A stretch of DNA of 64,000 nucleotides from Bacteroidota bacterium (lineage in GTDB: Bacteria > Bacteroidota > Ignavibacteria > Tepidaquicellales > Tepidaquicellaceae). A program made the position numbers and the translations under genes. Shown one piece after another: positions 40,915-63,433 of this stretch (within the stretch, counting starts at the first letter, position 1; each line of letters opens with the position of its first letter). The stretch covers positions 372,001-436,000 of the forward strand of contig JAFDZP010000005.1 in assembly GCA_018266835.1 (NCBI GenBank), read 5' to 3'. Below the pieces are notes generated by a model. It had not been told where the DNA came from and did no database searches. It was given only the letters and a program-made list of their open reading frames with translations.

Positions 40915-42437
40915 GAGCGTTCCCTCCCTATTCTATTCTCTGTTCTTTGCAGTGAAAGTTTTAAATCTGTTCCTCTTATTGAAGTAGTTACAATGTACGG
41001 TTCTCTTACGGTATGTATTACAGGCGGCTGAGGTTTTACATTTCCTGCAAGCTGAAGGATTTCACGGTGCGATGTGATTGAGCCCGTTACATTCGGAGTG
41101 AACAGCTCCATTCCGTGCTCACCTACTAAGTAAGTGCTTCCTCCCCATACCATTCCGCCTCCTGCTTTAGGACCAACTGCAGATACTGCAGCTGCTGCAA
41201 CCGGACCTATACCCGGAATAAATGAAAGTCCCGTTTTTAAAAATCCAAACAACCCGCTTGCTGCTTGCGCTGCCTGAATAGCTGCAAGGATAGTTTCTAT
41301 TACTGTAAGCGCTGTGCCGAATCCGTCAATCAGTTGTCCTACAAAAGTATCTGCTCCGATGTGAAGATTGTTCATTATAGTTCTTAGTGAACCGCCGAGC
41401 TTCTGCGCCTCACCGTAAGCCTGCTCGAAAACTTGGTAGGGGTCAGGACCTTTGTTTTGCTTTGCACCTCCTGCAAGATTTTTTTCCCGATGCTCTGTTT
41501 TATATATCTGAATAATAGAAGGTCTTTCTTCATATTCAGTATTGAATGAACCGTAACTTGTTTTTGTATAATTATTAAGATTTGTTGTAGTAGTTTCAAC
41601 GTTTTTATTTCCGGCACCTTGATTATTGGGTAACCTTTGTGATGGACCTTTTGACGGATCCGATGGACCTCTTTTGTTCTCGTCTTTACCTTCATTTTCA
41701 TTAATTTTCTTTTTAAGATTTTCCAGCTCTTCATCTATTTCTTCTATTGTTTTATCTAACTCACGTCCTTTAAGAACTTTTTTTCCTGTATCATAAAGTT
41801 CTATGTAGGGGGCTACTGATTCGGAAAGATAAGATATCATAGACAATATAGTGTCAAAATCGATATCTTCTCCGTCTTGAGCATATTTCTTTACCGGGTG
41901 TTTAGCATTATACTCCTGCCATTCTTTATATTTTCTTTGGAAGTATTCTTTCCATTTAGGATCATTAAAATCAACATTATTTGTGTCCAAACCTTGTTGT
42001 TCGAAGTAAGGAACAGGATTTAAAATTGGTTCCTTTGGAGCTACATTCGTATTATCTCTATTATGAAAATCATCACCCATCTCCCTTATTTCAACATTAC
42101 TTGTGATAGATTTTTTAACTAGAGTAGTAATTATAGCTGCAAATTTTCCTTCCTCACCGCCAAATTCTGCTACTGCAGACATTCCTGTGTCAAACATCCA
42201 ATCTTCTATTAGTTTATTCATTTCAGCAATTGTTTCTTTACGCTTCTTTTCCAGTTCCCTTATTCTTTTTCGCGGATCGTCATCGTTTAATGAAAAGCTT
42301 GAAACGAATTCGTCCGCGCTGTCAGAAGTCTGCTGAATAATATTTTTTACTTTCAAAAATTTATCAGTTAAGGTATCCAAATATTTAAGATTATCCTCAT
42401 TGAAAAATTCATTTAATTTTAAAGTTTTTAGTTCCAT
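40911..42437 (-). CDS. Tape-measure-like tail protein, full copy
   Basis: The 508-residue protein has a long charged and coiled-coil N-terminal half (for example RKRIRELEKKRKETIAEMNK). A hydrophobic stretch is at about 375-430 (AAIQAAQAASGLFGFLKTGLSFIPGIGPVAAAA). The end GGMVWGGSTYLVGEHGMELF followed by TPNVTGSI is the standard C-terminal signature of phage tail tape-measure proteins. It is short for a tape measure, implying a short tail. The segment DPYQVFEQAYGEAQKLGGSL (about 345-365) is repeated in the next gene and in fragments near 45.9 kb. Confidence 0.7.
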   Translation of the reverse strand: MELKTLKLNEFFNEDNLKYLDTLTDKFLKVKNIIQQTSDSADEFVSSFSLNDDDPRKRIRELEKKRKETIAEMNKLIEDWMFDTGMSAVAEFGGEEGKFAAIITTLVKKSITSNVEIREMGDDFHNRDNTNVAPKEPILNPVPYFEQQGLDTNNVDFNDPKWKEYFQRKYKEWQEYNAKHPVKKYAQDGEDIDFDTILSMISYLSESVAPYIELYDTGKKVLKGRELDKTIEEIDEELENLKKKINENEGKDENKRGPSDPSKGPSQRLPNNQGAGNKNVETTTTNLNNYTKTSYGSFNTEYEERPSIIQIYKTEHREKNLAGGAKQNKGPDPYQVFEQAYGEAQKLGGSLRTIMNNLHIGADTFVGQLIDGFGTALTVIETILAAIQAAQAASGLFGFLKTGLSFIPGIGPVAAAAVSAVGPKAGGGMVWGGSTYLVGEHGMELFTPNVTGSITSHREILQLAGNVKPQPPVIHTVREPYIVTTSIRGTDLKLSLQRTENRIGRERS

Positions 42438-42440
42438 AAT

Positions 42441-42845
42441 TTGTTTTTACAAATTTATTTTTATGTTGAAAAATCCAATGCCATAAATTATATTGGAATA
42501 TATTTTAAAGCATCTACTTTGAAAGAGTCAACTTATTTAGTTATTTTAAAATTTATAGCGGTTTTGTTCGCAGCATTAATTTTTGAAGGAAGATTTAAAA
42601 TTTATTTTAATACTTCACCTAAGGAAAGTTTTAAAAGGTTATTTACCGGATATGATAAAGTTAAATTCATAAGACTTTTATTAAGTGTAGTATGTATTTT
42701 GGCGGCATTATTTACCGATGTTTTCCTGATTGAAAAATTTAAAAATGAACACATTTTTATTCCGGCGTTTATGTTTTTCGCTGTAATATTATTAATTATT
42801 AGTTTCAATTTGAAGCAAAAGGAAAAAAGTGATAATCGAAATTGA
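42441..42845 (+). CDS. Small multi-span membrane protein, start uncertain
   Basis: This plus-strand frame sits between two minus-strand tape-measure genes. It contains three hydrophobic segments (LVILKFIAVLFAALIF; LLLSVVCILAALFTDVFLI; IPAFMFFAVILLIISF) and ends KQKEKSDNRN. No in-frame ATG exists before the first helix; the earliest start is TTG at 42441, overlapping the promoter region of the minus-strand gene. It may be a fragment. It behaves as a cargo gene in the tape-measure locus; function unknown. Confidence 0.5.
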   Translation: MFLQIYFYVEKSNAINYIGIYFKASTLKESTYLVILKFIAVLFAALIFEGRFKIYFNTSPKESFKRLFTGYDKVKFIRLLLSVVCILAALFTDVFLIEKFKNEHIFIPAFMFFAVILLIISFNLKQKEKSDNRN

Positions 42846-42898
42846 ATATTTGTAACGAATTATAAATATGTTTAGAAAAAGCTTAAAATATAAAAACT

Positions 42899-44473
42899 TT
42901 AGCATTGAACGAAATTGCGGATGTGAAGATTGCGCATTATAGTATTTAGAGAGCCGCCAAGTTTTCGCGCTTCGCCGTAAGCCTGCTCGAAAACTTTGTA
43001 AGGGTCCTGACCTTTTGCTAACTTAGCTGGATTTCTATTAGTGCCGTATGCATCAGAAACTCTGGCCCCGTCTTTTTCTTCCTCAGGTAGTCCTCCCGCT
43101 CTTTGTCCTCTTGGAGGTCTTTTTCTGTAATGGTCTGAAGGGATTGAATAATTTCTTCCCGGCGTTTCGTAATCGTCAGTTGTCTTTCCGTACAGTTCAT
43201 CGGCGATATTATCTAGACTTTTAACAGTGAAGCCGCTTAGATGCGACTGAAGTTTATTTTTAAAATCTTTCTCGTTGAGTTCGTTAAGCTTCTCCTGAAG
43301 CTCTACTCTTTCTTTTAAAGTTTCAGCATCTTCACCGGTTAGTGAGTTAAGTTTATCCTGAAGAATTCCTACTTCTTTTTTGTAATCAATCTCCTGACCA
43401 AATGCTTCTGCATATTCATTCTTAAAGTCAATAACTTCAGTGAGAAGTTTTGATTTATCAAACTTTGCTCCTTTCAATTCAAAAGCTGTTTTTATCTGGT
43501 TATAGAGATTATTTATAAACTCATCTCTAAAATCTTCATCGGGAGTTGTTTTGGGTTTTGGGGGCTTGCGGACTTTTTGCCGTTTTTGTTGTGTTTTCTT
43601 TTTTTGATTATTTGTTAATATTGAAAGTGCATTTCTCTTAAAATTTTTAAATCCGCCAAAAGCAAAAGGATTATCCTCTAAACCCAGACCGAAATCCCCG
43701 CCCTTAATTGATGATTTATTTTCCTTATATTGAACAACATCATCATCATCTTTGCGCTTTAAATAATCAGGGAGATCAGGAGTATGTGTTGTCCAGAAAT
43801 AATCGGCATTATTTTGTGAAGGAAGAGTAGGGGTATAATTATTTTTTAAGAGTTTTCCTTCCTTAGGTTCATTATACTGATTATAAAGATGATATAAAAA
43901 ATCTCCTGCTTGACTGTTTACATAACTCTGAACAAAGCCCATAACAGCTAAAGGAATCTGACTTCCCGGTACAAATACGGAGGCAATTGCAGGACCAAGT
44001 TTATCACGAACAAAAGATACAAATGTTGCAATTTCCAGTGGTGATGGAAGAATTTCAGGGTAAACTTTTGAGATTGGACCCTGCGGTGAATCCGGATCTC
44101 TTTTACCCACTGCAAGCATCTTTATCATTTCCCAATAGCTTGTTTGGTTACCACTTATCAACAACTCAGTCGGCTTACCAAGCGTACTATTACGAGTCAT
44201 ATAAGCCGTTACAATGTTAAGTGCAAGTTCTCCTAAATCCCAATAAAGATTACTGTTATTTTGAGATCCCTGAATTTCTTTTGTTGTTGGAATATCAATT
44301 CCAAATAAAAGCTTTGGTAATACTATTCTTGGATCAAAGTCTCTTTCAGTAAAACGATTATTGGGAGTGTCGCTGTTTATATCTTTTATAATACTATTCA
44401 GTGTTTTCAAACCGACTGTAGTGTCGGAAACTGTTTTATTAAACTCCTCTATTTCTTTTGAAAATGAATTCAT
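42899..44473 (-). CDS. Tape-measure-like paralogue truncated at the C terminus
   Basis: This is a 524-residue protein. Its last 35 residues (DPYKVFEQAYGEARKLGGSL, then NTIMRNLHI) match the 508-residue tape measure. The match stops exactly where the hydrophobic core begins, and the frame ends eight residues later (RNFVQC). The N-terminal two thirds are unrelated or strongly diverged, with coiled coil at about 370-410 (LNSLTGEDAETLKERVELQE). It is either a cassette donor or a decayed duplicate. A third partial copy lies at 45424-45585. Confidence 0.65.
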   Translation of the reverse strand: MNSFSKEIEEFNKTVSDTTVGLKTLNSIIKDINSDTPNNRFTERDFDPRIVLPKLLFGIDIPTTKEIQGSQNNSNLYWDLGELALNIVTAYMTRNSTLGKPTELLISGNQTSYWEMIKMLAVGKRDPDSPQGPISKVYPEILPSPLEIATFVSFVRDKLGPAIASVFVPGSQIPLAVMGFVQSYVNSQAGDFLYHLYNQYNEPKEGKLLKNNYTPTLPSQNNADYFWTTHTPDLPDYLKRKDDDDVVQYKENKSSIKGGDFGLGLEDNPFAFGGFKNFKRNALSILTNNQKKKTQQKRQKVRKPPKPKTTPDEDFRDEFINNLYNQIKTAFELKGAKFDKSKLLTEVIDFKNEYAEAFGQEIDYKKEVGILQDKLNSLTGEDAETLKERVELQEKLNELNEKDFKNKLQSHLSGFTVKSLDNIADELYGKTTDDYETPGRNYSIPSDHYRKRPPRGQRAGGLPEEEKDGARVSDAYGTNRNPAKLAKGQDPYKVFEQAYGEARKLGGSLNTIMRNLHIRNFVQC

Positions 44474-44541
44474 CGAGTTCTTATTTAAATTTTAGCTTTT
44501 TGAATTTTTGCATAAGTAATCAAGGCTAATCAAATATTGTA

Positions 44542-44570
44542 TTGACTTTATTTCTTAGCCCTAATATATT
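44542..44570 (+). promoter_or_regulatory. Sigma-70-like promoter, leaderless gene
   Basis: TTGACT and TATATT are separated by exactly 17 bases. The next gene's ATG begins 7 bases after the -10 box, so the transcript would start at or very near the initiation codon. A homologous box set lies at 45193-45221. Confidence 0.6.
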
Positions 44571-44576
44571 TATGGT

Positions 44577-44753
44577 ATGTGGACAATTGTTATACTTGGG
44601 GCAGTAATTATAATATTTATTGATTTATTGTTTATTTGGGCGAGTAAACAAAATCCCAAATCCACACGAAAAGGATTATGGGAATCCCTTAAAGAATTAA
44701 ACAAACTTGAAAAAGAAAGAAGTAAGAAAAAATCCCATGAAACTATTAAATAG
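44577..44753 (+). CDS. Small single-span membrane protein (58 aa)
   Basis: The frame starts MWTIVILGAVIIIFIDLLFIW, one strong transmembrane helix, followed by a Lys/Glu-rich cytoplasmic tail (ESLKELNKLEKERSKKK). It follows a consensus promoter with no room for a leader. It is the first gene of cassette unit 1 in the tape-measure locus, on the strand opposite to the tail genes. Possible roles such as superinfection exclusion or immunity are speculation. Confidence 0.6.
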   Translation: MWTIVILGAVIIIFIDLLFIWASKQNPKSTRKGLWESLKELNKLEKERSKKKSHETIK

Positions 44754-44784
44754 TGAAAAAACTTAATCGATACTTGTTAAATTT

Positions 44785-45000
44785 ATGTTTGAACTTATTA
44801 TTGTAATAATAGTAACTATAATTGGTGCTTTCTTAACAGTTTTCGTTAACAAAAAAGAAAAACAGGCTATACGTGAAGATTTAAGGGATAATTTTTTTTA
44901 TCCTAAATCACTTTCACCTGCTCAGGAAAAAGTCCGTCTTGAACAAATTCAAAAGAAAGAAGAGCAGGAAAAGTCAAACGGAAAATCCATATCCTATTAA
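44785..45000 (+). CDS. Small single-span membrane protein (71 aa)
   Basis: The frame starts MFELIIVIIVTIIGAFLTVF. One N-terminal helix is followed by a charged tail (NKKEKQAIREDL; KVRLEQIQKKEEQEKSNGK). It is 31 bases downstream of the 58-residue gene, probably one transcript. Design is the same: helix first, long charged cytoplasmic tail. Function unknown. Confidence 0.6.
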   Translation: MFELIIVIIVTIIGAFLTVFVNKKEKQAIREDLRDNFFYPKSLSPAQEKVRLEQIQKKEEQEKSNGKSISY

Positions 45001-45106
45001 TTATTACTATGCTCCGGACAATATGAAAACCCTGTCTTTGCCTGTTTTACGAATTTATTTTTTATAAACACCTGCTCCTGAAATTTACCTTCCTCGCCTC
45101 TTTTAT

Positions 45107-45176
45107 GTAGTTGTTGGTGAGGAACCCCAACAACGGCGTTAAAAAATATGTTACGCTTCAACCCTCCAACAACTAC
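45107..45176. repeat. Inverted repeat GTAGTTGTTGG/CCAACAACTAC
   Basis: An 11-bp perfect inverted repeat has its arms 48 bases apart. Its left arm runs into a GTTGTTGG...CCAACAAC hairpin related to the GTTGGTC family. It lies at the boundary between cassette units 1 and 2. The flank 45015-45100 is similar to 45926-46010. Confidence 0.6.
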
Positions 45177-45192
45177 TTATTTCATTTAACTA

Positions 45193-45221
45193 TTGACTTT
45201 ATTATTTAGTCCACATATTTT
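45193..45221 (+). promoter_or_regulatory. Sigma-70-like promoter, second copy
   Basis: TTGACT, 17 bases, TATTTT. The surrounding 40 bases (TATTGACTTTATT...TTAG.CC...ATAT.TTTATGG) match the promoter at 44542, showing that the unit start was duplicated. The next gene begins 68 bases downstream. Confidence 0.55.
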
Positions 45222-45288
45222 TATGGTGTAAAGATTATTATACGTTGTATTTTAATAGAATTTAATTCGTAAACTTAAAAAATGGAAA

Positions 45289-45408
45289 ATGGAAATATAT
45301 ATTCTTATGATAATTGCAGGATTAATTGGTATTCTCTATAGAATTAAAAAATGCGGAGGCTGGGAAAATTATAAAGAAAAAGTAAAAAAAAGTATTTGGA
45401 ATATGTAA
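45289..45408 (+). CDS. Small single-span membrane protein (39 aa)
   Basis: The frame starts MEIYILMIIAGLIGILY, one transmembrane helix, then KKCGGWENYKEKVKK. It lies downstream of the second promoter copy and resembles the 58- and 71-residue proteins of unit 1 in layout only. Function unknown. Confidence 0.5.
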   Translation: MEIYILMIIAGLIGILYRIKKCGGWENYKEKVKKSIWNM

Positions 45409-45423
45409 CTTAATTTCTAAAGT

Positions 45424-45585
45424 AATAATACATAGTATTCATTTCTTCCTGCAGTATTCCGATTTCCTTTTTTAAATCAATCTCTTGGCCAAATGACTCT
45501 GCGTATTGATTTTTAAAGTCTATAACTTCTGTGAGTAGCTTTGACTTATCAAACTTTGCTCCTTTTAATTCTAAAGCTTTCTTTG
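45424..45585 (-). pseudogene. Tape-measure-like fragment (third copy)
   Basis: Read on the minus strand, this gives ALELKGAKFDKSKLLTEVID, then FKNQYAESFGQEIDLKKEIG. It is nearly identical to the 524-residue paralogue (ELKGAKFDKSKLLTEVIDFK and onwards). It has no start or end and is flanked by unrelated plus-strand sequence, so it is a remnant of a third copy. Confidence 0.75.
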
Positions 45586-45596
45586 GATAATACTAA

Positions 45597-45707
45597 ATGG
45601 CAAAACATGATACTACACTTCCAACTTGGGAAGATGTTAAGAAATATTCTAAAAAAATAAAGAATTTTATAGAAAACCTTTTCAAAGGATCAAATTTAAG
45701 AAAATAA
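45597..45707 (+). CDS. Short possible protein (36 aa)
   Basis: The frame starts MAKHDTTLPTWEDVKKYSKK and ends FKGSNLRK. It is basic and soluble, and has no recognised family. Just after it, a different plus-strand frame (45762-45854) reads KSFKRGTDYKIQQGKYFRGS and ends RTPGS, without a start, like the 3' end of a lost gene. Either could be debris of cassette exchange. Confidence 0.3.
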   Translation: MAKHDTTLPTWEDVKKYSKKIKNFIENLFKGSNLRK

Positions 45708-45852
45708 CTCTAAAGAAATTGGCTACGCTGACGGGGGACCTGGTATAAATCTTTTAAGAGAGGTACAGATTATAAAATTCAACAAGGAAAATACTTTAGA
45801 GGAAGTACAAAAAATATTTTCACAAATTCTAAAAAGAGAACTCCCGGTTCTT

Positions 45853-45885
45853 AAAAGTATCTGCTCCAATGTTCAGATTGTTCAT
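45853..45885 (-). pseudogene. Second fragment of the third tape-measure copy
   Basis: On the minus strand it reads MNNLNIGADTF, matching MNNLHIGADTF of the full tape-measure gene (about residue 370). This is exactly the segment missing from the truncated paralogue. The match starts precisely at the end of the plus-strand RTPGS fragment. Confidence 0.65.
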
Positions 45886-46032
45886 TTAAGCCGTTGTTGG
45901 TCTTCCTGACCAACAACCACAAGAATATGAAAATCCTACCCTTTCCTAATTGACGAATTTATGTTAGCAAATAACACCTATCACTGAAATTTACCTTTCC
46001 CGCTTTTTTAAAATCCACTATCTAAACAAAAA

Positions 46033-52547: not shown

Positions 52548-53354
52548 TTACGGCTTGTAAACTACTTCTGCAAATTTTGTATTTAATAATTTCAAACCTG
52601 CCTGGCATACTAAATCTTTAATGTCTTTTAAATTTTCTTCATCGTAAACTTCCTTCAGCTCTGCCTGTCTTCCCATGATAAATGCCAAACCGGGACCGTA
52701 GAATGCAGTCATATTTACTTTGCTTGTGTTAACTGTAGGCACCAATCCTGAAATGAAAATCTGGAAGCCAAGTAATGAAGGTACTTTGCCGCTTTCAAGA
52801 TAATCTCTGTTGTATGATGTTGCATTCTTTACCGTATCGATTGCAAAAAATTCATCTACTAAGTCTGCGCTTACTACAAGAACTCTGCCTGTCTGAGGAA
52901 TTTTATTTTTATCCATTCTCTTCTTAAGCGCGGTCAGATCTGCCCATGCCATTGATGAACCGGCAAATGCTGTCTTAGTACCTGTTTGAGCTTCCGCAAT
53001 AACTTCGCTGTCAAACTGCTCGCCTAATACTAAAGCTGCCGAATCAAGATATTCTTTTATAAGAACTCCGTTCGATTCCCACTGAGCAGTAATTTCATTT
53101 GCAAGCGGAACTGCATAAGGTCCTAATGCAACATTTATTAACGCAGTATCTGCCTTTGCATTTTTTCGATCTGTTGAAGTTGATGTAGTGCCTGTCTTTT
53201 TTACTTTAGGAATTGCAAGGTCAGGAATATCAACCGAAGTTGCTCCGGGACGGACGAGCGCATCAAATCCCCTATTGCATGAATTATAAATATTTTGCTG
53301 CTCGATTAATCTCTGAACAACACTGTCTGATACTAATGTTTTTGAAAATGCCAT
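52548..53354 (-). CDS. Major capsid protein
   Basis: This is a 268-residue protein. Features are an N-terminal arm (SDSVVQRLIEQQNIYNSCNR), the conserved middle region with SMAWADLTALKKRMDKNKIP and a GRVLVVSADLVDEFFAI strand, and an FQIFISGLVP segment, all as in short HK97-fold capsid proteins of Bacteroidota phages. It follows the protease/scaffold gene, the standard order. Confidence 0.75.
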   Translation of the reverse strand: MAFSKTLVSDSVVQRLIEQQNIYNSCNRGFDALVRPGATSVDIPDLAIPKVKKTGTTSTSTDRKNAKADTALINVALGPYAVPLANEITAQWESNGVLIKEYLDSAALVLGEQFDSEVIAEAQTGTKTAFAGSSMAWADLTALKKRMDKNKIPQTGRVLVVSADLVDEFFAIDTVKNATSYNRDYLESGKVPSLLGFQIFISGLVPTVNTSKVNMTAFYGPGLAFIMGRQAELKEVYDEENLKDIKDLVCQAGLKLLNTKFAEVVYKP

Positions 53355-53394
53355 TTTTTTGATTTAAGTTAATTTTAAAATTTATTTCTTCCCG

Positions 53395-53475
53395 AATTAA
53401 TAATTAATAAAGAATAATTAATAATACTTTCGATTTTAGAATTATTAATTACTAATTATTGATTATTAATTGGCG
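53395..53475. repeat. AT heptamer repeat abutting a stop codon
   Basis: ATTAATA/ATTATTA-type 7-bp units run up to the stop of the protease/scaffold gene. This shows the heptamer pattern is also present inside the phage-like cluster. Confidence 0.65.
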
Positions 53476-54441
53476 TTAGCGAAAGTGCTCTGCTCTCATT
53501 TGTTCAAGCTCAGTTTCTGAAAATTTATTTTTTTCAATAAGCTTCGGATTTCTTAAAATCTGAGCGTAAGTAATTTTTGCACCTCTTTCATTAAAATACT
53601 TTGGGTCTTTTAAACTCAGAGAGCTGTTGTTGATTTTATTTTTTTCAAAGAGAGGATTTGCAGGAAGCATATCCAGATAAGATTTACATGCTTCATAATC
53701 ATTTTCTGCAAACGTCATTAAAAAATCTTTCTGAACAGGAAGAATTTTACCCGATGATACTGCATCATTGATAAGATTCTCTGCCCGCTTCTCAGAAATT
53801 TTTTCAATTTCCTCTTCGTACCTTTTTACTGCGTCGCTCAAAGTCTGAACTTCGCTTTGCAGCGAATTAATTTTCGCTTCGGCAAACTCCGATATTTTTT
53901 CAATATCTGCCTCCGCTTCAAGTCCGAGAGATTCCGCAAATTTTACAATTTGCTCTTTTTGTGTTTCACTCACGTTTTTAATTTTAAGTTTTGAATTTTT
54001 ACTGCTTCTTTTTTTCCTTTCATCGGAAAAATTTAAAAAACAGTCTTCGCTGAAATAGATGACAGCTTCTTTATCTGATGTTTGGAACTGCATTTCAGGA
54101 AGACCTTTAACCTGCGGAAAATTTACAAGGCTGACTGCGCGCAAATATTTTCCGACTCCGTCATAATTTGCAATTTCAATTGAAGGTCTCTTGTACTTTC
54201 CCTCGCTTGTTAATTGTTTTGCTTCATCGGAAACTTTCGAAAATGAAACCCAGAGTTCCTTTCCTTTTGCTATTACACTTTCTATCCAGCCCAAAGCGCT
54301 GCCTTCTCTTTTGTGGTCAAGAGTAAGCGGCGCTTCGTGGAAGGTCGGTGAGTAGTTAACTGCGATTTCTTTTAAATCGCTTTCAGTTATTTCTCCTTGC
54401 GGATATTTGCCCGCTATAAATACTTTGAATAATTTGCTCAT
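53476..54441 (-). CDS. Mu gpI-like head maturation protease/scaffold
   Basis: This is a 321-residue protein. The N-terminal half matches Mu gpI-type proteases (FKVFIAGKYPQGEITESDLK, PLTLDHKREGSALGWIESV, KRPSIEIANYDGVGKYL). The C-terminal half is a coiled-coil scaffold (about 175-240, including INSLQSEVQTLSDAVKRYEE). Combined protease and scaffold in one chain is typical of Mu-like heads. It is the first minus-strand head gene, divergent from the plus-strand portal operon. Confidence 0.75.
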   Translation of the reverse strand: MSKLFKVFIAGKYPQGEITESDLKEIAVNYSPTFHEAPLTLDHKREGSALGWIESVIAKGKELWVSFSKVSDEAKQLTSEGKYKRPSIEIANYDGVGKYLRAVSLVNFPQVKGLPEMQFQTSDKEAVIYFSEDCFLNFSDERKKRSSKNSKLKIKNVSETQKEQIVKFAESLGLEAEADIEKISEFAEAKINSLQSEVQTLSDAVKRYEEEIEKISEKRAENLINDAVSSGKILPVQKDFLMTFAENDYEACKSYLDMLPANPLFEKNKINNSSLSLKDPKYFNERGAKITYAQILRNPKLIEKNKFSETELEQMRAEHFR

Positions 54442-54707
54442 TGATGGTTGGTCGTTTTTCGTTTTCCGTTACTCGTTCCAATTATTCGAATAACGAACAA
54501 CGAATAACGAAGTGTTGCAATTTGCAAATAATATTTTTGGAAAACTAACCAACCGCCCTCATTAGTAGTAATAGGTAATTGTTTTTATTTTCCGCTTGAC
54601 AGAATTGTTTGGAAATTCATGTCAAGTCTTTTCTTAATTAATTCCCCTATTACTGCTAATTGGGATGAGTGCATAATCTTCTTTTTTTTCTTTGAGTATA
54701 TTTGCAC

Positions 54708-55124
54708 ATGCTAAACAACATATATACAGATTTCAAAAATTATTTAGAGTCAGCTTTCCCTGATATTAAAATAGATGAGTACAGAGGAGAGTTTAAAGAA
54801 AAAGCGCCGGTAAACTGGAACCCGAGTTTTCCGTGCTGCCTTATTAAGCTTGAAGAATATTCTCCGGTAGTGCGGGCTTCATCCGGAGAGATTATCAGGC
54901 ATCAGACAAAATTTACTTTATACATTGCTGAAAAAAATTCATTAGGGTATGAATTAATTCAGCAGATTGTGGATAACCTAAACGAAACACATCTCTCACA
55001 TATTGTGAATAACTCCGTTCCCGTAATTATAGATGGAGGATATGATGTGGAAGTTGATTCAGTAAAGTTTTTCACTGCCGTGAATTCCGTAAGGGTTCAC
55101 ACACTTAACATAACAATTTTTTAA
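54708..55124 (+). CDS. Mu gp37-like protein (DUF1834 type)
   Basis: The protein is about 138 residues, starting at ATG 54708; a TTG two codons earlier is possible. It resembles Mu gp37-like head-tail proteins: short, mixed alpha/beta, with LIKLEEYSPVVRASSG and the closing strand VNSVRVHTLNITIF. First gene of the plus-strand operon with portal and gp36-like genes. Confidence 0.6.
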   Translation: MLNNIYTDFKNYLESAFPDIKIDEYRGEFKEKAPVNWNPSFPCCLIKLEEYSPVVRASSGEIIRHQTKFTLYIAEKNSLGYELIQQIVDNLNETHLSHIVNNSVPVIIDGGYDVEVDSVKFFTAVNSVRVHTLNITIF

Positions 55125-55141
55125 AGCATCAATTAAAACTC

Positions 55142-56317
55142 ATGTCTCTATCAAAAGTTCTCAGCCTTCCCGAGTTATCCAGAAGGCGCAAAGAAAATAC
55201 AAAACACATTTCGAAAGATTCCCGGGTAATACCCTCGGCACACATTCAGAACATCTACTCGCTCTACACTTCCGAATTTGCCAATCTCGATATTTCCAAT
55301 CTTAAGTATTACCTGGAGTCTTCCCGGAAAGGTCTCAACTTCTGGAAGTCACTTCTCTTTGAATACGTCAGAAGAATTGACCTCCGCATTGCTGCCGTCT
55401 GCCAGACAAGAAAGTTATCCGTTCTTGGAAGTAAGTATCATATAGAAGGTAAAGACCCTGCATTAAATACCTTCGCAGAAAAATTAGTCGCAGATATTTC
55501 TAATATCGAAAATTTTTTCACTGATATTGTTGAAAGCTGCATTCAGGGCTTAAGCCTTTTTGAAATCAATTATAAATTTGAAGACAATAAAATTTTCATA
55601 GATGATTTAAGAAGAATTCAAAATCATCTCGTCGTTTACGATGATTTAGATGAAGAGTATTACATCCTTGATGCATTAAAAACTTCAGCTATTAATTTGC
55701 GCCTTGCAAGCGGAACTATAACGGATAGAGTTGACGTAAAATCTCTTCCGCTCCTGAATATCCCCGGTGAGAAACTGCTTGAAGTGCATTCCTTCGACGG
55801 CGATAACCCGAACGGATTTCTAAACGGATGCATCGACTCCCTCATACTCGCTTACTTCTTCAAATCTTACTCGGTTAAGGACTGGCAAATATTCATCGAA
55901 AAATTTGCAAGCCCCACAGTGATAGGAAAATACTCCGCTCTCAATCAGCATGATAAAAATTCTCTAATGCTCGCAGTGCAGAATTTAAAAAACAATGCAT
56001 CTGCTGTTATTCCGGGAGAGGCAGATATTCTTTTCAGAGGAGATGAGAACAAAGGCGAGGGCTCTGCTGTGTTCAACAGCAATATTGAATTCTGGAACAA
56101 TGAAATTACCATACGTGTTCTAGGCCAGCACCTGACAACGTCACTCGATAAACAGGGCTCATATGCCGCAGCACAGGTGCATAATGCAGTCCGCCGCGAT
56201 ATCCTTCTCAGCGATTACCATTTAATAGAGCGCACGATGGATGAGCTGATAAAGCGCGTTATCGATTTTAATTTTATCGATGTAAAAGATTATCCGAAAT
56301 TTGTTTTTAGTTTCTAA
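55142..56317 (+). CDS. Portal protein, DUF935/Mu gp29-like
   Basis: This is a 391-residue protein. DUF935 features are visible: RIDLRIAAVCQTRKLSVLG near the N terminus, SCIQGLSLFEINY, KDWQIFIEKFASPTVIGKY and RVLGQHLTTSLDKQGSYAAA with VHNAVRRDILLSD. It is shorter than Mu gp29 (about 510). It forms the dodecameric DNA entry ring in Mu-like heads. It lies 17 bases after the gp37-like gene. Confidence 0.85.
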   Translation: MSLSKVLSLPELSRRRKENTKHISKDSRVIPSAHIQNIYSLYTSEFANLDISNLKYYLESSRKGLNFWKSLLFEYVRRIDLRIAAVCQTRKLSVLGSKYHIEGKDPALNTFAEKLVADISNIENFFTDIVESCIQGLSLFEINYKFEDNKIFIDDLRRIQNHLVVYDDLDEEYYILDALKTSAINLRLASGTITDRVDVKSLPLLNIPGEKLLEVHSFDGDNPNGFLNGCIDSLILAYFFKSYSVKDWQIFIEKFASPTVIGKYSALNQHDKNSLMLAVQNLKNNASAVIPGEADILFRGDENKGEGSAVFNSNIEFWNNEITIRVLGQHLTTSLDKQGSYAAAQVHNAVRRDILLSDYHLIERTMDELIKRVIDFNFIDVKDYPKFVFSF

Positions 56318-56369
56318 AGTTAAAAGTTCATCAGGTTCTTAAAGTATTTTTAAAATTACCATATGTACT

Positions 56370-56446
56370 TTAACCTTACAAACTTTTAAAACTTTATAAA
56401 TCTTTCAAACTTTATAAACCTTAAAAACTTTACAAACTTTTAACCA
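56370..56446. repeat. AT-rich degenerate tandem repeat
   Basis: Repeated ACTTTATAAA/ACTTTAAAAA-like units lie between the portal and gp36-like genes. Function unknown. Confidence 0.5.
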
Positions 56447-56452
56447 ACTACC

Positions 56453-56890
56453 ATGTCCTATACAAATAAAGATTACTTCCTTTCAAAAATAAATTCCGAA
56501 GAGCTCGATAAGCTTACCGGCAGCTCGGACGATAACCTTAGCTCCGCTATCCGCAGCGCCGACTCAATGATAAACAGTTATCTTAAAAATGTTGTTGCCG
56601 CTGTACCCATCGCACCAAACGGAACCGATGACCAGTATCCCGCAGCCATAAAGCAGTGCTCCTATGATCTCGCAATATTTTATCTGCACGATAGAATACA
56701 ATACTCTGAAATCCCACAGTGGGTGAAAGATAAATACAACGCTGCTATAGATTTTCTTACAAAGATTGCCAAAGGCATTATCACACTGGAAATTGAGACT
56801 GAAGATACAACTGCTGAGCACTACCAGGCGCCTGATGACAACATAAAATTTTTTGGAAATGATACTGTGATGAGCAGAGGAAGCTTCTAA
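56453..56890 (+). CDS. Mu gp36-like protein (DUF1320)
   Basis: The 145-residue protein matches DUF1320 head-completion proteins: SYTNKDYFLSKINSEELDKL, AIRSADSMINSYLK, QCSYDLAIFYLHDRI and KYNAAIDFLTKIAKGIITL. It is the last gene of the plus-strand head operon and is followed by a strong terminator. Confidence 0.8.
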   Translation: MSYTNKDYFLSKINSEELDKLTGSSDDNLSSAIRSADSMINSYLKNVVAAVPIAPNGTDDQYPAAIKQCSYDLAIFYLHDRIQYSEIPQWVKDKYNAAIDFLTKIAKGIITLEIETEDTTAEHYQAPDDNIKFFGNDTVMSRGSF

Positions 56891-56984: not shown

Positions 56985-58463
56985 CTACACATAATTTCTT
57001 CTCGGATTTACCACGTAAGAGTACTGCATATTCTCATCGCTCTCAATGGTATATCTCGTTGCCCACAGGCCGTAGTCGCAGGCATCACTCAAGTGAGTGC
57101 TTTCCCTGTCCGATTTATCTATAATAAATTTCTCGCTCCCCTTCTTCCAGTTCACAAGCTCCCTGTCTTTTATCGAGTGTACGCATGCATCCGATATATA
57201 AAACTGCTTCTTCTCCAGCAATGCGTTTACAAAATTCACACGTTCTCTCACCGGAGGATTCGCGCCCTTAACAAATAAGTACGATTCAAACCCCGCCTTA
57301 TCAAACATCGATTTTATTATAAAGTAGTCCGATGCATCACCCGAGCTGCTTCGCGACTGCCCCGATGCATCACCCGTAATTATCACGCTAAGCCCGCGCC
57401 AGTTTTCATAACGCTGCTGCATCCTCTCGATTATATTTTCGCAAAGCTCACGCGTATTGCTGTTAGGGACTTTATACTCCTGCACTTGGTACCTCGTTTT
57501 TCCCTCTGTGATAATTTCTACAGCGCACATAGGGTTCACGTTAAAGTCAAAGCTGAGGATTATCCTGCTGCGCTTCTCCCCTGAAATTTTATTCGTCAGC
57601 AGGTCACTGCTTATAACGTTCTCCGCGCGGTCAAAGCAGTAGTACACCAGCTCCGAGTCGATATTAACAAACTCCCCCTCGATATATTGCTTCACCATCC
57701 TGCTATCAAACTGCTCATACAAGTTCGAAATAAAATCCGACGGCAGATAAATATTGTTCGATGACTTCGCCTTTGTAACAATAAAGTTTTTAAAGTCCTC
57801 TCGCTTTTCAAACTTCACCGGCTCACCCGTGAAAGGTCTTTCCTTCACAATGCCGCGTTTTATCTTTTCAAATATATCCATAGCATCTATTCTTTCCTGC
57901 TCTCTTTTATTCTTCGCCTCAGTTCTTTTTTCTTTTGACAATACTCCAATCTCCTTTCTTTTATGTGTATTTATTATTTTTGATACATGCGATTCACTCA
58001 GCCCCAGCTCCTCTGCAATACACTTTGTACTGCCCGAGTGTTTTATAACAAGCTCCGCCAAATTTTTTCTTAGCTTCATTTCCCTTTCCCTCTCAATTTT
58101 TCTTTTCATCGCATAAAATTTTTTCTTCATCTCTTTGTTCCCGTGATACCTGAAGTAAGTTCTCAGCCTCTCATAATTTTCTTTCATAAGTTCAGCCAGC
58201 TTAGTCATACTTCCTTCGCACAGCGGTAAAAATTTTTCAATCCTCTCAGTCATTTCTTTTCGCACCGTCTCAAATTTATTTTCGTATTCTATCTTCCGGA
58301 ATCTCTCATAAATATCTTTTCCCTCTTCGCACTTAAAAGTTCGCCTGATAGTTGCCCGTGGGATCTTCGTCAGCCGTGAAAGTTTCCTCTCACTCCCTCC
58401 GCAATGCCCCACCCATTCATCAAGCTTGGCAATATTCTGCCTCCTGATTTCTTTACAGTTCAT
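56985..58463 (-). CDS. Terminase large subunit, nuclease half with three HTH units
   Basis: This is a 492-residue protein. Residues 1-170 contain three helix-turn-helix units about 60 residues apart (near 22-44, 82-105 and 142-166; for example GSTKCIAEELGLSESHVSKI). From about 220 it matches the post-ATPase part of large terminases: NIYLPSDFISNLYEQFDSRM, YIEGEFVNI, then an RNase-H-like nuclease with acidic residues in LSFDFNVNPM, ITGDASGQ and LSDACDYGLW. The ATPase half is a separate gene 3.4 kb away with the same (HTH)3 architecture. It should cut concatemeric DNA during packaging. Confidence 0.85.
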   Translation of the reverse strand: MNCKEIRRQNIAKLDEWVGHCGGSERKLSRLTKIPRATIRRTFKCEEGKDIYERFRKIEYENKFETVRKEMTERIEKFLPLCEGSMTKLAELMKENYERLRTYFRYHGNKEMKKKFYAMKRKIEREREMKLRKNLAELVIKHSGSTKCIAEELGLSESHVSKIINTHKRKEIGVLSKEKRTEAKNKREQERIDAMDIFEKIKRGIVKERPFTGEPVKFEKREDFKNFIVTKAKSSNNIYLPSDFISNLYEQFDSRMVKQYIEGEFVNIDSELVYYCFDRAENVISSDLLTNKISGEKRSRIILSFDFNVNPMCAVEIITEGKTRYQVQEYKVPNSNTRELCENIIERMQQRYENWRGLSVIITGDASGQSRSSSGDASDYFIIKSMFDKAGFESYLFVKGANPPVRERVNFVNALLEKKQFYISDACVHSIKDRELVNWKKGSEKFIIDKSDRESTHLSDACDYGLWATRYTIESDENMQYSYVVNPRRNYV

Positions 58464-58721
58464 ATTTGTTAGATTTATTTTTTAGAATAGTAAACTTAAA
58501 GGGCGTTACCTATGATGGTTTTATTTCGTTGATATTGTTCGTTGTTCATTTATCAGTGATATAAAAAGAATAGTCTTACTGAGAACTAAAAACTAGCAAC
58601 TGACAACTAACAAAGATACAAAGAATGATTTTATTTCAGAAGTGATTGGTACCTATTAGTAGGAATAGGGGAAGAATATTTATTCATTTATAAAACAAAG
58701 AAAAATATGAGATACTAAAAA

Positions 58722-59114
58722 TTAAATATATCGCTTATAAGAATTTAGATTATTCTTTTTAAGCTTATAAATGTTATCCATTGCTTGTCTAGTTTTGAAC
58801 ATGACATAATCTACTAAGCCATTACAATTTTGTAATTGTTTATTTTGATGTGGTATACTATGAAGGCAATAAATTTGACCTTTTTGCGTAGTTTGCCTAC
58901 AATATGATACAGTATATACTACTCTATAACTAATAGACTTAAAAGTGAAATCAAATTTCCAAAAATCGTTAAGTTTAGATGTATATTTTGTACCGTAAGT
59001 TGTGGGATTTTTTGAAATTTGAATTCCATGTTTTAATGCTTCTGCTTGAATGTCTTTTGATTTTGCGATAAAATCTTTATAGAAGCGATCCTGTAGGTTA
59101 AATTTAAATGCCAT
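58722..59114 (-). CDS. RelE/ParE-like toxin candidate
   Basis: The 130-residue protein resembles RelE/HigB-fold toxins: FYKDFIAKSKDIQAEALKHG helix region, then LNDFWKFDFTFKSISYRVVY, which matches the strand pattern of that family. It is 2 bases downstream of the 59117 gene, a typical toxin-antitoxin spacing. Located in the interval between the two terminase halves. Assignment is from fold-like pattern only. Confidence 0.5.
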   Translation of the reverse strand: MAFKFNLQDRFYKDFIAKSKDIQAEALKHGIQISKNPTTYGTKYTSKLNDFWKFDFTFKSISYRVVYTVSYCRQTTQKGQIYCLHSIPHQNKQLQNCNGLVDYVMFKTRQAMDNIYKLKKNNLNSYKRYI

Positions 59115-59116
59115 TA

Positions 59117-59656
59117 CTACGAATGTTTTATAAGTTCTTCAAATGAATCACCGGTTTTTCCTTTATCAATTGAAAATTTTGTATTAAATACTATTTCAGA
59201 AATAAATTCATCACAATCATTTGTATCTTCTTCAAAAGCTTTACTCTCTGAAATTGTTTTTAGGCTTTTAATGAATTCTTCTATTACAACTATTGCTTCA
59301 TCAAAATACATACTAAATTCCAAATCATGCAATTTTTCTTTTTTAAAAATTTTGACAATATCTTTATTAAAATCAATTAATCCTTCGAGAATTTTATGAA
59401 CTTCTTTATACTTTTTTTTAGCTTGTTCAGGAGTATATTCAATTATAACATCAAATAGTTTTTTAAAAACTTCAATTTGGAGTCTTGCTATTAATATACC
59501 CTCTTCATTGATATTTCTTTCTGGGTATACAAATTTTACCGAAGGTTCTTTAAAAAAGCCAATTACTTTATCTTTAAATAATTTAGTAGCACCTGAAGTA
59601 CCTTTAATATAAGAGTAATTATCGAGAGAATTGTCTATTTCAATGCATGTATTCAT
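59117..59656 (-). CDS. Helical protein, possible antitoxin partner
   Basis: This is a 179-residue acidic, mostly helical protein (ARLQIEVFKKLFDVIIEYTP; KIFKKEKLHDLEFSMYFDEA). No family was recognised and no DNA-binding motif is obvious. The 2-base gap to the RelE-like gene and a consensus promoter directly upstream suggest a two-gene transcript. An antitoxin role is inferred from position. Confidence 0.45.
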   Translation of the reverse strand: MNTCIEIDNSLDNYSYIKGTSGATKLFKDKVIGFFKEPSVKFVYPERNINEEGILIARLQIEVFKKLFDVIIEYTPEQAKKKYKEVHKILEGLIDFNKDIVKIFKKEKLHDLEFSMYFDEAIVVIEEFIKSLKTISESKAFEEDTNDCDEFISEIVFNTKFSIDKGKTGDSFEELIKHS

Positions 59657-59668
59657 AATTATAAATGT

Positions 59669-59697
59669 TATATAAGTTTAGACATAAATAAAAACAA
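59669..59697 (-). promoter_or_regulatory. Sigma-70-like promoter of the RelE-like pair
   Basis: On the minus strand, TTGTTT and TATATA are separated by 17 bases, about 13 bases upstream of the 59656 start codon, so the leader is very short. Confidence 0.5.
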
Positions 59698-59958
59698 TAT
59701 CTAGGGTATAGGAATAGGATTTAAACGTTATAAAAATAATTGGGAAAAGCAAATTTAGCAAGCCAGATTAACATTTATTATGTTTTGTAAAATTGCAACA
59801 AAAAAATAGCAAAAAAGTTTGAAAAAGAACTATTGGTGTGGTACTCACCCACCTTATAGTTTAACTCTATCTTCTAAAGTCCAATTTAGCAGTTGTAACA
59901 ACTGCCGCATCTCTCGCTTAGCTTCCAATACCGCCCATTCCCTCAATGTTTTTATCCA

Positions 59959-60026
59959 TTGAATTATTCCTACTCGTTCAATATATTTATGTGTTCATTA
60001 TCCGTGAACATTAATAAATATTGAAC
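59959..60026 (+). promoter_or_regulatory. Promoter and operator of the AbiE-like operon
   Basis: TTGAAT, 17 bases, TATATT form a promoter. A 51-bp imperfect inverted repeat (arms 59976-59997 and 60005-60026, GTTCAATAT.../...ATATTGAAC) covers the -10 box and ends directly before the ATG at 60027. AbiEi-type antitoxins are known to repress by binding inverted repeats at their own promoter, so this is the likely operator. Confidence 0.6.
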
Positions 60027-61046
60027 ATGAATGAAGATATTATAATACCTTATATCACTCAAAAGCTGCAAGAATGGCTCAACACTGATGTTAAATGGAA
60101 AAGAAACCATAACGAAAGAGAGAGAAATGATGGAGAATTAACTTTAAAACTTAATGGTAAAACCGAAAAATTCATAATCGAAGCCAAGGTTGAAGCTAAA
60201 AAACAAACAGTTCCCGTAATTATAGCTTACAAAAAAAAGTATCCTGATTTTATCTTTATGGCCCATACTATATACCCCGAAGTAAGAAAAACTTTAAAGG
60301 ACTGCGATATCAACTATATTGACGGAGCAGGAAATATGTACATAAAAACAAAAAATAATTTTCTTTTTATTGAAGGTCAAAAAACAGAAAATAATAAACA
60401 AAAATACAAAGGAAGACTGTTTGAAAAAACCGGTTTGAAAATACTATTTGCATTCCTGGTAAATGGAAAAATATTAAACTGTACTTACAGACAAATTGCC
60501 GGACTGACAGGTACAGCGCTTGGAACTATAGACTATGTAATAAAAGAGTTAAAAGCCGAAGGCTATGCTCTGGACATCAATAAAAATGAAATGAAGCTTA
60601 ACAAAACAAATGAACTAATGAATAAATGGATTAACGGCTATGACCAGAAATTGCAAAAAAATATCAACATAGGTACTTTCCGTCTTGATAAAGAAAATTG
60701 GAAAGAACTGCCGCTCAATACAAATAGAACTTTATGGGGCGGAGAGCCTGCCGCAGCTATTCTTACAAAATATTTACATCCGGAAGTTTTTACAATTTAT
60801 ACAGATGAAAATTATACTGAGCTGATAAAGAACTACAGGTTAATTCCCGATGAAAACGGTAATGTGATAGTTAATAAAAAATTCTGGCAGAATGAAATTA
60901 TAAATACAGAGGTGCTTAATAATAATCTTCAGAACACTGTGCCTCCCCTGCTTGTTTATGCTGACTTAATAAACACTGCAATTCCCAGAAATATTGAAAC
61001 AGCTAAAATAATTTACGAAAAATACCTTGAAGATAAATTCAACTGA
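60027..61046 (+). CDS. AbiEi-family antitoxin-like protein
   Basis: The protein is about 339 residues, starting at ATG 60027. An N-terminal segment (KTEKFIIEAKVEAKKQTVPV) recalls restriction-like nuclease folds. A winged-helix region is at about 140-195 (YRQIAGLTGTALGTIDYVIK, KELKAEGYAL). The C-terminal part (RTLWGGEPAAAILTKYLHPE) is typical of type IV antitoxins of the AbiEi/COG4861 group. It overlaps the nucleotidyltransferase gene by 20 bases. Confidence 0.7.
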   Translation: MNEDIIIPYITQKLQEWLNTDVKWKRNHNERERNDGELTLKLNGKTEKFIIEAKVEAKKQTVPVIIAYKKKYPDFIFMAHTIYPEVRKTLKDCDINYIDGAGNMYIKTKNNFLFIEGQKTENNKQKYKGRLFEKTGLKILFAFLVNGKILNCTYRQIAGLTGTALGTIDYVIKELKAEGYALDINKNEMKLNKTNELMNKWINGYDQKLQKNINIGTFRLDKENWKELPLNTNRTLWGGEPAAAILTKYLHPEVFTIYTDENYTELIKNYRLIPDENGNVIVNKKFWQNEIINTEVLNNNLQNTVPPLLVYADLINTAIPRNIETAKIIYEKYLEDKFN

Positions 61047-61860
61047 TTTAAGAATAGAAGGAAGTAAAGATATTTTCCTCTCACTCGAAAAGGCGTTCAC
61101 AAAATTTGATATAGATTTTTATCTGATAGGCGCTCTTGCAAGAGATGTAATGTTTCTCTCCAAAGACCATAAACCCATAAGAGCAACACAGGATATAGAT
61201 TTTGCTGTAATGATTCCAGATAACAACGTTTACGAAGCTCTGAAAAAATATCTTGAAGTAAATGAAAACTTTAAACCCGACCAAAGAGAACCCTACAGAA
61301 TGACGGCAGGGAGTGTAATAATAGACCTGCTGCCATTTGGAAAAATTGAAAGCAAAGAACGAACTGTAATTGTTCATGGAAAAGAAATTACAGAATTAAA
61401 CGTACTTGGATTAAGTGAAATATACTACTCCGCATATACAGTAAGCATTGATGACGACTCAGTCTTTAAAGTAGCAACGCTCCCGGGAATATGTATTCTA
61501 AAATTAATATCCTATACGGATAGACCTGATGACAGAGCAAAAGATATTGAAGACATAACTTTTATTTTAGATAATTATCATAATATGAATGTTGATTATA
61601 TTATAGCTGAACATTCTGAACTAATGGAGTATGGCTGGGATGAAAAGCTCTCAGCTAAAGTTCTGGGCAGAGATATAGGACTTATTTTAAAAGATAATAT
61701 AGAATTAAGGGACAAAATAATTTCAATTTTAAAGAATAATATAGTAGAACATAGAACGGGAAAAATCGCTGAGCTTATGACTGTCAAATCTGAAAGAACT
61801 ATTGAAGACAGCATTGAATTATTAAATAAAGTACTTGAAGGAATTAACGAAAGAATTTAA
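61027..61860 (+). CDS. AbiEii-like nucleotidyltransferase (toxin candidate)
   Basis: The 277-residue protein has a nucleotidyltransferase core: YLIGALARDVMF and RATQDIDFAVMI (the D-x-D metal site), then a third acidic strand (GSVIIDLLPFG). It starts at TTG 61027, inside the end of the antitoxin gene, so translation is coupled. This matches the AbiEi/AbiEii type IV toxin-antitoxin arrangement, which can act as abortive-infection defence. The C-terminal helical region differs from classical AbiEii. Confidence 0.75.
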   Translation: MKINSTDLRIEGSKDIFLSLEKAFTKFDIDFYLIGALARDVMFLSKDHKPIRATQDIDFAVMIPDNNVYEALKKYLEVNENFKPDQREPYRMTAGSVIIDLLPFGKIESKERTVIVHGKEITELNVLGLSEIYYSAYTVSIDDDSVFKVATLPGICILKLISYTDRPDDRAKDIEDITFILDNYHNMNVDYIIAEHSELMEYGWDEKLSAKVLGRDIGLILKDNIELRDKIISILKNNIVEHRTGKIAELMTVKSERTIEDSIELLNKVLEGINERI

Positions 61861-61885
61861 TACAAGAATATAATACAAGAATTGT

Positions 61886-61912
61886 ATTGTCGGGGCTATC
61901 GCCCCATTAAAA
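61886..61912. repeat. GGGGC/GCCCC hairpin repeat, second copy
   Basis: Same ATTGTCGGGGC...GCCCC...AAAAT sequence as at 27163. Here it lies exactly between the converging AbiEii-like and terminase ATPase genes. Confidence 0.6.
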
Positions 61913-63091
61913 TTAACAATTTCCCCATAATTCATAAGTAAGCTTGAAGCCCTCAGGAGTTGTCACAACTGCGACAGTGCCGAGGTCAACCTTACGAATC
62001 CGCGATATACATTCACGCCATAAAATTTTCTGTTTTGGGTAAGGGATTTTATCGAATTCATCTATAATTATATCCGATAAATTTTTGCCGGTGAGATTGC
62101 GCGGCTTATCGGCGCTGCGCAGCATTGCAGTATGCTCCCTGCCGTGATAATAAATTGTGTAATTCTGAAATCCGGAGTTCCACTTTGTAGTTATGTTCAG
62201 CGATGCAAAAAATTCATCGAAGAGCGGCAGAAGGATATCGCGCACCATTTCATTCGTCGGTTCAAGTATCATTATATCACACTTTTTATTTTGCGCTGCG
62301 CGGAAATCAATAAGCCGCAGCCACCGTAAAGGAATAGCCATAGTTTTTCCCGACCCATAACCTCCTATCAATCCCGGGTGTTTTACATAATTTGGTGAAA
62401 AATTCGCAAACTCGTTCTGATGCGGAAGAAATTTTGCTTCATCAATTTCATCGTGAATAAATAATTGAGCATTTTTCTCTAATAGTTTTTCAAGTTTCTT
62501 ATTCCTTCTATCAATTGTTTCTTCTTTTTTTAATGAGCGAAGCTCATCTACATTTTTCTGTAAATGAGAATATTCATCGCTTTTTAAAATGCTCCATACA
62601 GTTGAGCGGCAGCAGCCTGCTTCTCTTGCAACTTTGCTCAGATTCCCTTGAGAATCAGGAATTAACTCCTCAATTTTTTCTGCTTTAATTTTCTTTGATT
62701 CCCTGACAATCTTAGGCGCATTTTCCCTCTCATTATTAATTTTTTCTTTGAGATAAAAATATTCTTTCTTATTGATTAATGAACTTACCGTTGATTTATT
62801 CAGGCCCGCTTTATCTGCAATAAATTGAATATTCCCTCTGCTCCCTTTGATTGATTTCTCAATAAGCTCAAGTGATTTTTTTCTTGCTTCTTGCCCCGGC
62901 TTTATGAATGGTTCTTTCTCAAATATATCTTTGAGCGATTTATTCCGCGGGTCGCTCAGTGTTCTTGAAACAGTGTTCGCCGAAAGTCCTGTCTTTCTTG
63001 CAATAACAATATTGCTTCTTCCGCATCCCGGAATTGCTTCTAAAATTTTTTGGTAATTAATTTTTCTTTGTTCTTCATTGGAAGGTTTCAT
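61913..63091 (-). CDS. Terminase large subunit, ATPase half with three HTH units
   Basis: This is a 392-residue protein. Residues 1-175 hold three helix-turn-helix units spaced about 60 residues (near 25-47, 85-107 and 147-170; for example GNIQFIADKAGLNKSTVSSL). The terminase ATPase follows: Walker A GGYGSGKT (243-250), Walker B SDIIIDEFDKI and coupling motif AVVTTPEGF. It stops 11 residues later (ELWGNC), exactly where the nuclease domain would follow in a normal large terminase. That nuclease is the separate gene at 56985. The C-terminal truncation is clean, with no frameshifted remnant seen. Confidence 0.85.
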   Translation of the reverse strand: MKPSNEEQRKINYQKILEAIPGCGRSNIVIARKTGLSANTVSRTLSDPRNKSLKDIFEKEPFIKPGQEARKKSLELIEKSIKGSRGNIQFIADKAGLNKSTVSSLINKKEYFYLKEKINNERENAPKIVRESKKIKAEKIEELIPDSQGNLSKVAREAGCCRSTVWSILKSDEYSHLQKNVDELRSLKKEETIDRRNKKLEKLLEKNAQLFIHDEIDEAKFLPHQNEFANFSPNYVKHPGLIGGYGSGKTMAIPLRWLRLIDFRAAQNKKCDIMILEPTNEMVRDILLPLFDEFFASLNITTKWNSGFQNYTIYYHGREHTAMLRSADKPRNLTGKNLSDIIIDEFDKIPYPKQKILWRECISRIRKVDLGTVAVVTTPEGFKLTYELWGNC

Positions 63092-63139: not shown

Positions 63140-63201
63140 AAGAATACAGTAAAATATGAAAAATGATTTTTATTCGGAAGCGAAGCTTCCCTATTAGTAG
63201 G

Positions 63202-63433
63202 GGTAGGTTTCTAATTAATAATTAATAATGAATAATTAATAATTAATAATGAGTAATTCATAGCGGGCTCGATTAGCAATTAACAATTTACAATTAACAA
63301 TTTACAATTAACAATTTACAATTAACAATGAGATTTATAAATATGCGAAGAAGATTAACATGAATATCGAATACTTATGATAATAATTTTTGTGAGAAAA
63401 ATTATTAATTATTCATTATTAATTATTCATTGA
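63202..63433. repeat. Heptamer repeats in a gene-free interval
   Basis: Two blocks of 7-bp units: AATTAATA-like at 63202-63260 and alternating CAATTTA/CAATTAA at about 63277-63330. A further AT block ends close to the stop at 63440. The interval 63092-63439 otherwise holds only the terminator. Confidence 0.75.

Follow-up and report, generated by a model that had tools for sequence, protein, structure and literature searches.

The large terminase of a Mu-like phage element is encoded here by two intact genes, one carrying the ATPase core and the other the lid subdomain and the nuclease domain, each behind an array of three helix-turn-helix (HTH) units. A DNA-packaging motor is normally one protein. 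In our judgment the chance is close to even, if a little short of it, that the two genes specify a two-chain large terminase in which core and lid-nuclease join in trans. Both genes are on the minus strand of the window, a 64,000-nucleotide stretch corresponding to bases 372001-436000 of contig C5 in a 4.0-Mb genome (8 contigs, 99% complete). We call them HTH3-ASCE and HTH3-lid-nuclease; unless a contig or locus is named, positions are those of the window.

61913-63091, minus strand: HTH3-ASCE gene, three HTH units plus terminase ATPase core, C-terminus TYELWGNC and stop (ORF, family matches, HTH alignment, predicted structure)
62516-63070, minus strand: three-HTH array of the ATPase chain, residues ~8-192 (alignment, predicted helices)
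61916-62431, minus strand: ASCE core, residues ~221-392, equal to D6E TerL 13-190 (structure alignment)
56985-58463, minus strand: HTH3-lid-nuclease gene, three HTH units plus the rest of the terminase (ORF, family matches, predicted structure)
57903-58451, minus strand: three-HTH array of the nuclease chain, residues ~5-187 (alignment, predicted structure)
57663-57800, minus strand: ATPase lid subdomain and linker, carried on the nuclease chain, residues ~222-267 (structure alignment)
57048-57659, minus strand: RNase H-like nuclease domain (alignment of relatives, structure alignment)

The HTH3-ASCE reading frame (392 aa) has no internal stops and ends in the letters AVVTTPEGFKLTYELWGNC followed by the stop codon. 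Its enzyme part matches Terminase_6N and phrog_2/phrog_38319, and is an ASCE ATPase complete with Walker A (GGYGSGKT), Walker B (IIIDE, in IIIDEFD) and coupling motif (TTPEGF). The predicted structure superposes on residues 13-190 of the D6E terminase (Z 17.3, 163 residues, rmsd 2.4). The HTH3-lid-nuclease frame (492 aa) is likewise intact, matches phrog_10250 and, weakly, Terminase_6C, and encodes an RNase H-like nuclease whose acidic motifs DFN, GDASG and HLSDA occupy columns that are invariant or nearly so across relatives. Its model aligns with D6E residues 185-417 (Z ~19, 220 residues, rmsd ~5) and with the P22 nuclease domain (Z 16.6).

A sequence-only reading of this DNA had proposed that a terminase is divided between an ATPase gene and a nuclease gene at these positions. 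The division is genuine: both frames are present on the same strand and open throughout. It is the place of the break that has to be redrawn. In D6E the ATPase domain consists of ASCE and lid subdomains, residues 213, 216 and 224 being among those of the lid; a linker at 230-241 leads on to the nuclease (PMC5727402). Because one gene covers D6E 13-190 and the other 185-417, lid included, the break falls inside the ATPase domain, at residues 185-190 between core and lid, and the proposal that the second gene begins the nuclease domain at IYLPSDF is refuted; that gene holds lid, linker and nuclease. The intact terminase of a sister species is partitioned in the same way: the first gene corresponds to its residues 31-217 and the second to 224-489, and the two stretches do not overlap. 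No single polypeptide unites core, lid and nuclease, and no remnants of the missing terminase parts were found beside either half in the window. We rejected an intron- or intein-interrupted terminase, since neither region has an Rfam match above noise and the second half begins with a start and an N-terminal domain of its own. It is hard to see what a lid on the nuclease chain would do in the absence of a core.

Three-HTH arrays stand at the N-termini of both halves, as the sequence-only reading had it; they are homologous, and their units can be aligned at a period of about 60 residues. Three proteins, the two of the window and a second HTH3-ASCE encoded elsewhere in the genome, contribute three units each; these nine units, of 59-62 residues, align nearly gap-free, and alignments of entire arrays exceed those of shuffled sequence by 14 to 19 SD. 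Since the best-matching pairs are mostly units that hold equivalent positions, all the arrays probably go back to a single array of three units. In the AlphaFold model of the ATPase protein, three helix triplets precede the enzyme core, with moderate confidence in the array (pLDDT ~50-85); array confidence is lower in the nuclease protein, and the enzyme cores reach 90 or more. The repeated three-helix units thus make up true HTH arrays. The arrays of the two chains are only ~25% identical and their recognition helices differ, so a meeting of both arrays on a common packaging site, also proposed earlier, is not indicated. Nor do the arrays have the form of a small terminase subunit, a separate short HTH protein that forms a ring on the packaging site, as they are fused to the enzyme halves.

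The idea that the arrays replace the small subunit has itself lost ground. A stand-alone gene elsewhere in the genome (C2:243558-244013, equivalent to L093:1528-1983) encodes a protein that matches a relative named terminase small subunit by PHROGs (E 3e-10, from a single comparison). With such a gene present, the arrays do not have to stand in for that subunit. This small-subunit-like gene also has in common with the HTH3 genes an upstream palindrome-like site of 18 bp (consensus CCTATTACTACTAATAGG), found 59-189 bp ahead of each of the three HTH3 genes. In the sister species, two stand-alone small-subunit-like genes are present (L277 and L278), the first of which adjoins the same host gene as L093. 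The same palindrome occurs near both genes and in the head promoter of that species. The sites in the window are as follows; further sites were seen at, for example, L306:17637 and L324:15508.

63190-63207, minus strand: palindrome-like site, 99 bp upstream of HTH3-ASCE
58652-58669, minus strand: palindrome-like site, 189 bp upstream of HTH3-lid-nuclease
54558-54663, no strand assigned: two palindrome-like sites (at 54558 and 54646) in the divergent head-gene promoter region

We ruled out the palindrome as an element-specific packaging site. It has 34 sites in 1.2 Mb of the genome, of which 32 are intergenic, and this makes it a host-wide motif; it lies upstream of 2% of genes. Its presence at HTH3, head and small-subunit-like genes suggests that these genes may be under shared control.

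An intact one-chain terminase elsewhere in the genome would have undone the case for a split motor. None was found in the 99%-complete assembly with Terminase_6N, Terminase_6C and both proteins as queries. Genome-wide, Terminase_6N has just two matches, the window gene and the second HTH3-ASCE, which is on contig C2; the sole match of Terminase_6C is the window nuclease. Against four viral outgroups, the split core is equal to or slightly more similar than the intact core of the sister species, and the nuclease is about equal; this absence of a rate rise argues against free decay of either part. The split lid is less similar to the outgroups (0.45-0.60) than is the sister lid (0.57-0.65), and is 78% identical to the latter. 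Pairwise dN/dS averages over both lineages and would therefore be compatible with a recent loss of function. The major capsid protein has a pN/pS of 0.08, and with head genes so strongly constrained a working terminase is to be expected.

The two-half terminase with arrays was seen in one genome only. Neither a split nor an array-bearing terminase was found in 80 viral loci picked by the ATPase half, where one apparent case (L181) came down to a single stop codon, or in 79 loci picked by the nuclease half; where a contig end does not cut the reading frame, the ATPase region belongs to one and the same chain. A search of 391 genomes of the class and 395 of the phylum, samples that partly overlap, returned nothing besides the window's own genome. 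A scan of a genome collection returned the sister species alone, with patterns so specific that the result is no evidence of absence. In phage isolates, neither query was covered to 80% at any place and the matches listed were ordinary terminase large subunits, and a scan of viral contigs for the end motif at the DNA level gave no match. In agreement with the earlier suspicion that such a layout had not been described, we found none in the literature searched, which included few subscription papers.

The halves adjoin the head genes of the element, which include the only Mu-type portal gene in the genome, and are 3.4 kb apart, with opposite-strand genes in between.

52548-56890, no strand assigned: Mu-like head module (major capsid protein, protease, portal, gp36), adjoining the terminase halves (family matches)
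58722-59656, minus strand: two very A+T-rich genes lying between the halves, of which the second is RelE/Gp49-like
60021-61860, plus strand: AbiEi/AbiEii-type toxin-antitoxin pair between the halves, on the strand opposite to them

The element takes in about 36599-64000 of the window and L050:1-8724; its counterpart in the sister species is found at L073 and L257. No transposase or integrase was recognised among the element ORFs examined. One contig of the sister species shows the same gene order across the tail, head and replication genes and a part of the host flank, with identities of 94-95% for the capsid protein, 79% for the protease, 82% for an endolysin-like protein and up to ~70% for tail genes; a flanking host gene is 95% identical to its counterpart. 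In element and host genes alike, synonymous sites have reached saturation or come close to it. Together with the collinearity and the low capsid pN/pS, this means that the element has stayed at one locus while the two species diverged. As a phage-like gene cluster that is passed on under constraint at a fixed chromosomal site, and known here from its genes, it resembles a domesticated prophage or gene transfer agent.

The sister species carries its one-chain terminase between a RecE-like gene and a Lin1244-type replication gene. That slot is present without a terminase in the window genome, where the halves lie instead between the replication gene and gp36. This difference bears on a rather unlikely but substantial alternative, in which an HTH-array terminase was broken by rearrangement in a decaying element, and the two frames are open by chance or because the event is too recent for decay. 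The opposite-strand toxin-antitoxin genes that separate the halves fit such an origin, as do the intact sister terminase elsewhere in the same element and the failure of T4 domains, once separated, to translocate DNA. So does the tape-measure locus, a sign of decay in the element: the window genome has displaced pieces and a remaining candidate of 508 aa, versus a single gene of 790 aa in the sister species. The locus (40911-45900) consists of a 524-aa fragment, which stops just past a conserved motif (NLHIRNFVQC and stop), a 51-codon relic that is 78% identical to that fragment, and the current 508-aa gene. Leftovers of a breakage would not readily account for catalytic motifs that are all intact, for core and nuclease rates that are not raised, for the lack of any remnant of the missing parts beside the window halves, or for an end point common to two diverged HTH3-ASCE copies with a constrained core.

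Identity between the window HTH3-ASCE and its second copy (C2:776126-777397) is 45% overall and 69% in the core. The second copy finishes in TYELWGQC, at the same residue, with TGA rather than TAA as the stop codon. A membrane-protein gene starts 34 bp past its end, which leaves no room for a terminase remnant behind it. In a tree, the two HTH3-ASCE cores are sisters (87/69) and the sister-species terminase is next (82/74), with moderate support. Between the copies, core pN/pS is 0.28 with saturated synonymous sites, and the arrays are down to 23% identity. The common end point in two copies so diverged makes a single older break likelier than two independent accidents. Third-position G+C of the enzyme part is raised in the nuclease gene (0.57) and in the C2 copy (0.59), unlike in the window ATPase (0.41), which gives a hint, and only a hint, of a common origin of the first two.

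The surroundings of the second copy raise a further alternative, distinctly improbable in our view: HTH3-ASCE, and perhaps HTH3-lid-nuclease, would be DNA-guided proteins of phage conflict instead of the motor of the element, for example an ATPase decoy that spoils the motors of incoming phages and a nuclease that cuts recognised DNA. The copy has no nuclease partner or head genes nearby. It sits with a TdeIII-type restriction enzyme and a type II methyltransferase in a species-specific insert of about 5 kb (L049:12127-16741, G000:C2); the membrane-protein and lipoprotein genes that flank the site are ~0.2 kb apart in the sister species and ~5 kb apart here. A short prokaryotic Argonaute with a TIR-domain partner (SPARTA-like, L049:7698-10602) is encoded ~1.5 kb from the insert, and the window copy adjoins the AbiE genes. 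Against such repurposing, the window pair sits in a head module with no other terminase, no match to a known defence family was found beyond weak HTH matches, and the nuclease chain keeps a lid that is useless to a stand-alone nuclease. The retained lid likewise disfavors a stand-alone nuclease leftover.

The two-chain motor could have arisen and could operate as follows. The terminase gene would have broken at the ASCE-lid boundary, and each half would carry a three-HTH array derived from one ancestral array. ASCE core and lid-nuclease would associate in trans on DNA and portal, rebuilding one motor that serves the element's own heads. The HTH arrays would make up for the lost covalent linker, holding each chain on DNA and possibly one chain on the other. 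In favor of the two-chain motor are the partition of the sister terminase without overlap, the break exactly between core and lid, and the failure to find another terminase; the unraised rates of core and nuclease and the identity of the lid to its sister counterpart; the second HTH3-ASCE copy with the same end, its sister grouping and its core constraint; and a palindrome found upstream of so few genes yet common to the three HTH3 genes and the head promoter. The inability of separated T4 gp17 domains to translocate (PMC9958956) speaks against it, as do the partnerless second copy, the fragmented tape-measure gene, the somewhat more diverged lid, the strong difference between the arrays of the two chains and the restriction to a single genome. 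The full reading, a working viral-type packaging motor with its ATPase site completed in trans and a three-HTH array on each chain, in the service of a phage-like element that is passed on vertically and is possibly a gene transfer agent, may be true, though on balance we would lean against it.

For viral packaging motors, a central open question is by what means the lid links ATP hydrolysis in the core to the movement of DNA, and a natural split between core and lid would allow core and lid-nuclease to be mixed, swapped and titrated. If the two-chain reading is true, a covalent link from core to lid-nuclease is not required, and DNA recognition is built into both motor chains. Were the pair a remnant, it would still document a terminase-core gene that has an HTH array and travels with restriction-modification genes. 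The Avs3-terminase complex (PDB 8dgc) is among the fold matches of both halves, and one can imagine, as a thought only, that splitting a terminase might evade Avs sensing.

Several known systems share parts of this architecture. In human cytomegalovirus, pUL89 is the large-subunit homologue and pUL56 a different protein, so that, unlike the present case, the pair is not a split of one chain. ATPase, specific DNA recognition and nuclease functions are shared between these two chains (PMC6897398). In related genomes, phage small terminase subunits of the Fis-like HTH type (phrog_24579/phrog_309) are weakly matched by the HTH units of the array profile; these are separate short proteins with a single HTH, whereas here three are fused to a motor. 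In T4 gp17, ATPase and nuclease domains made as separate polypeptides keep their enzyme activities and lose translocation completely (PMC9958956). Those constructs are laboratory-made, cut at the hinge after the lid, and have no HTH arrays. The D6E large terminase (PDB 5oe8, 5oea) has the ASCE, lid and nuclease folds that our two halves recover together (Z 17 and 19), but it is a single chain with a 12-residue lid-nuclease linker, an uninterrupted ASCE-lid domain and no HTH arrays. The intact TerL of the sister species (JAFDZO010000005.1; G001:C42:102217-103686) belongs to the same element, with the same head genes and motifs and with identities of 59% in the core and 62% in the lid-nuclease part; unlike the split pair, it is one chain without an HTH array and lies between RecE-like and replication genes.
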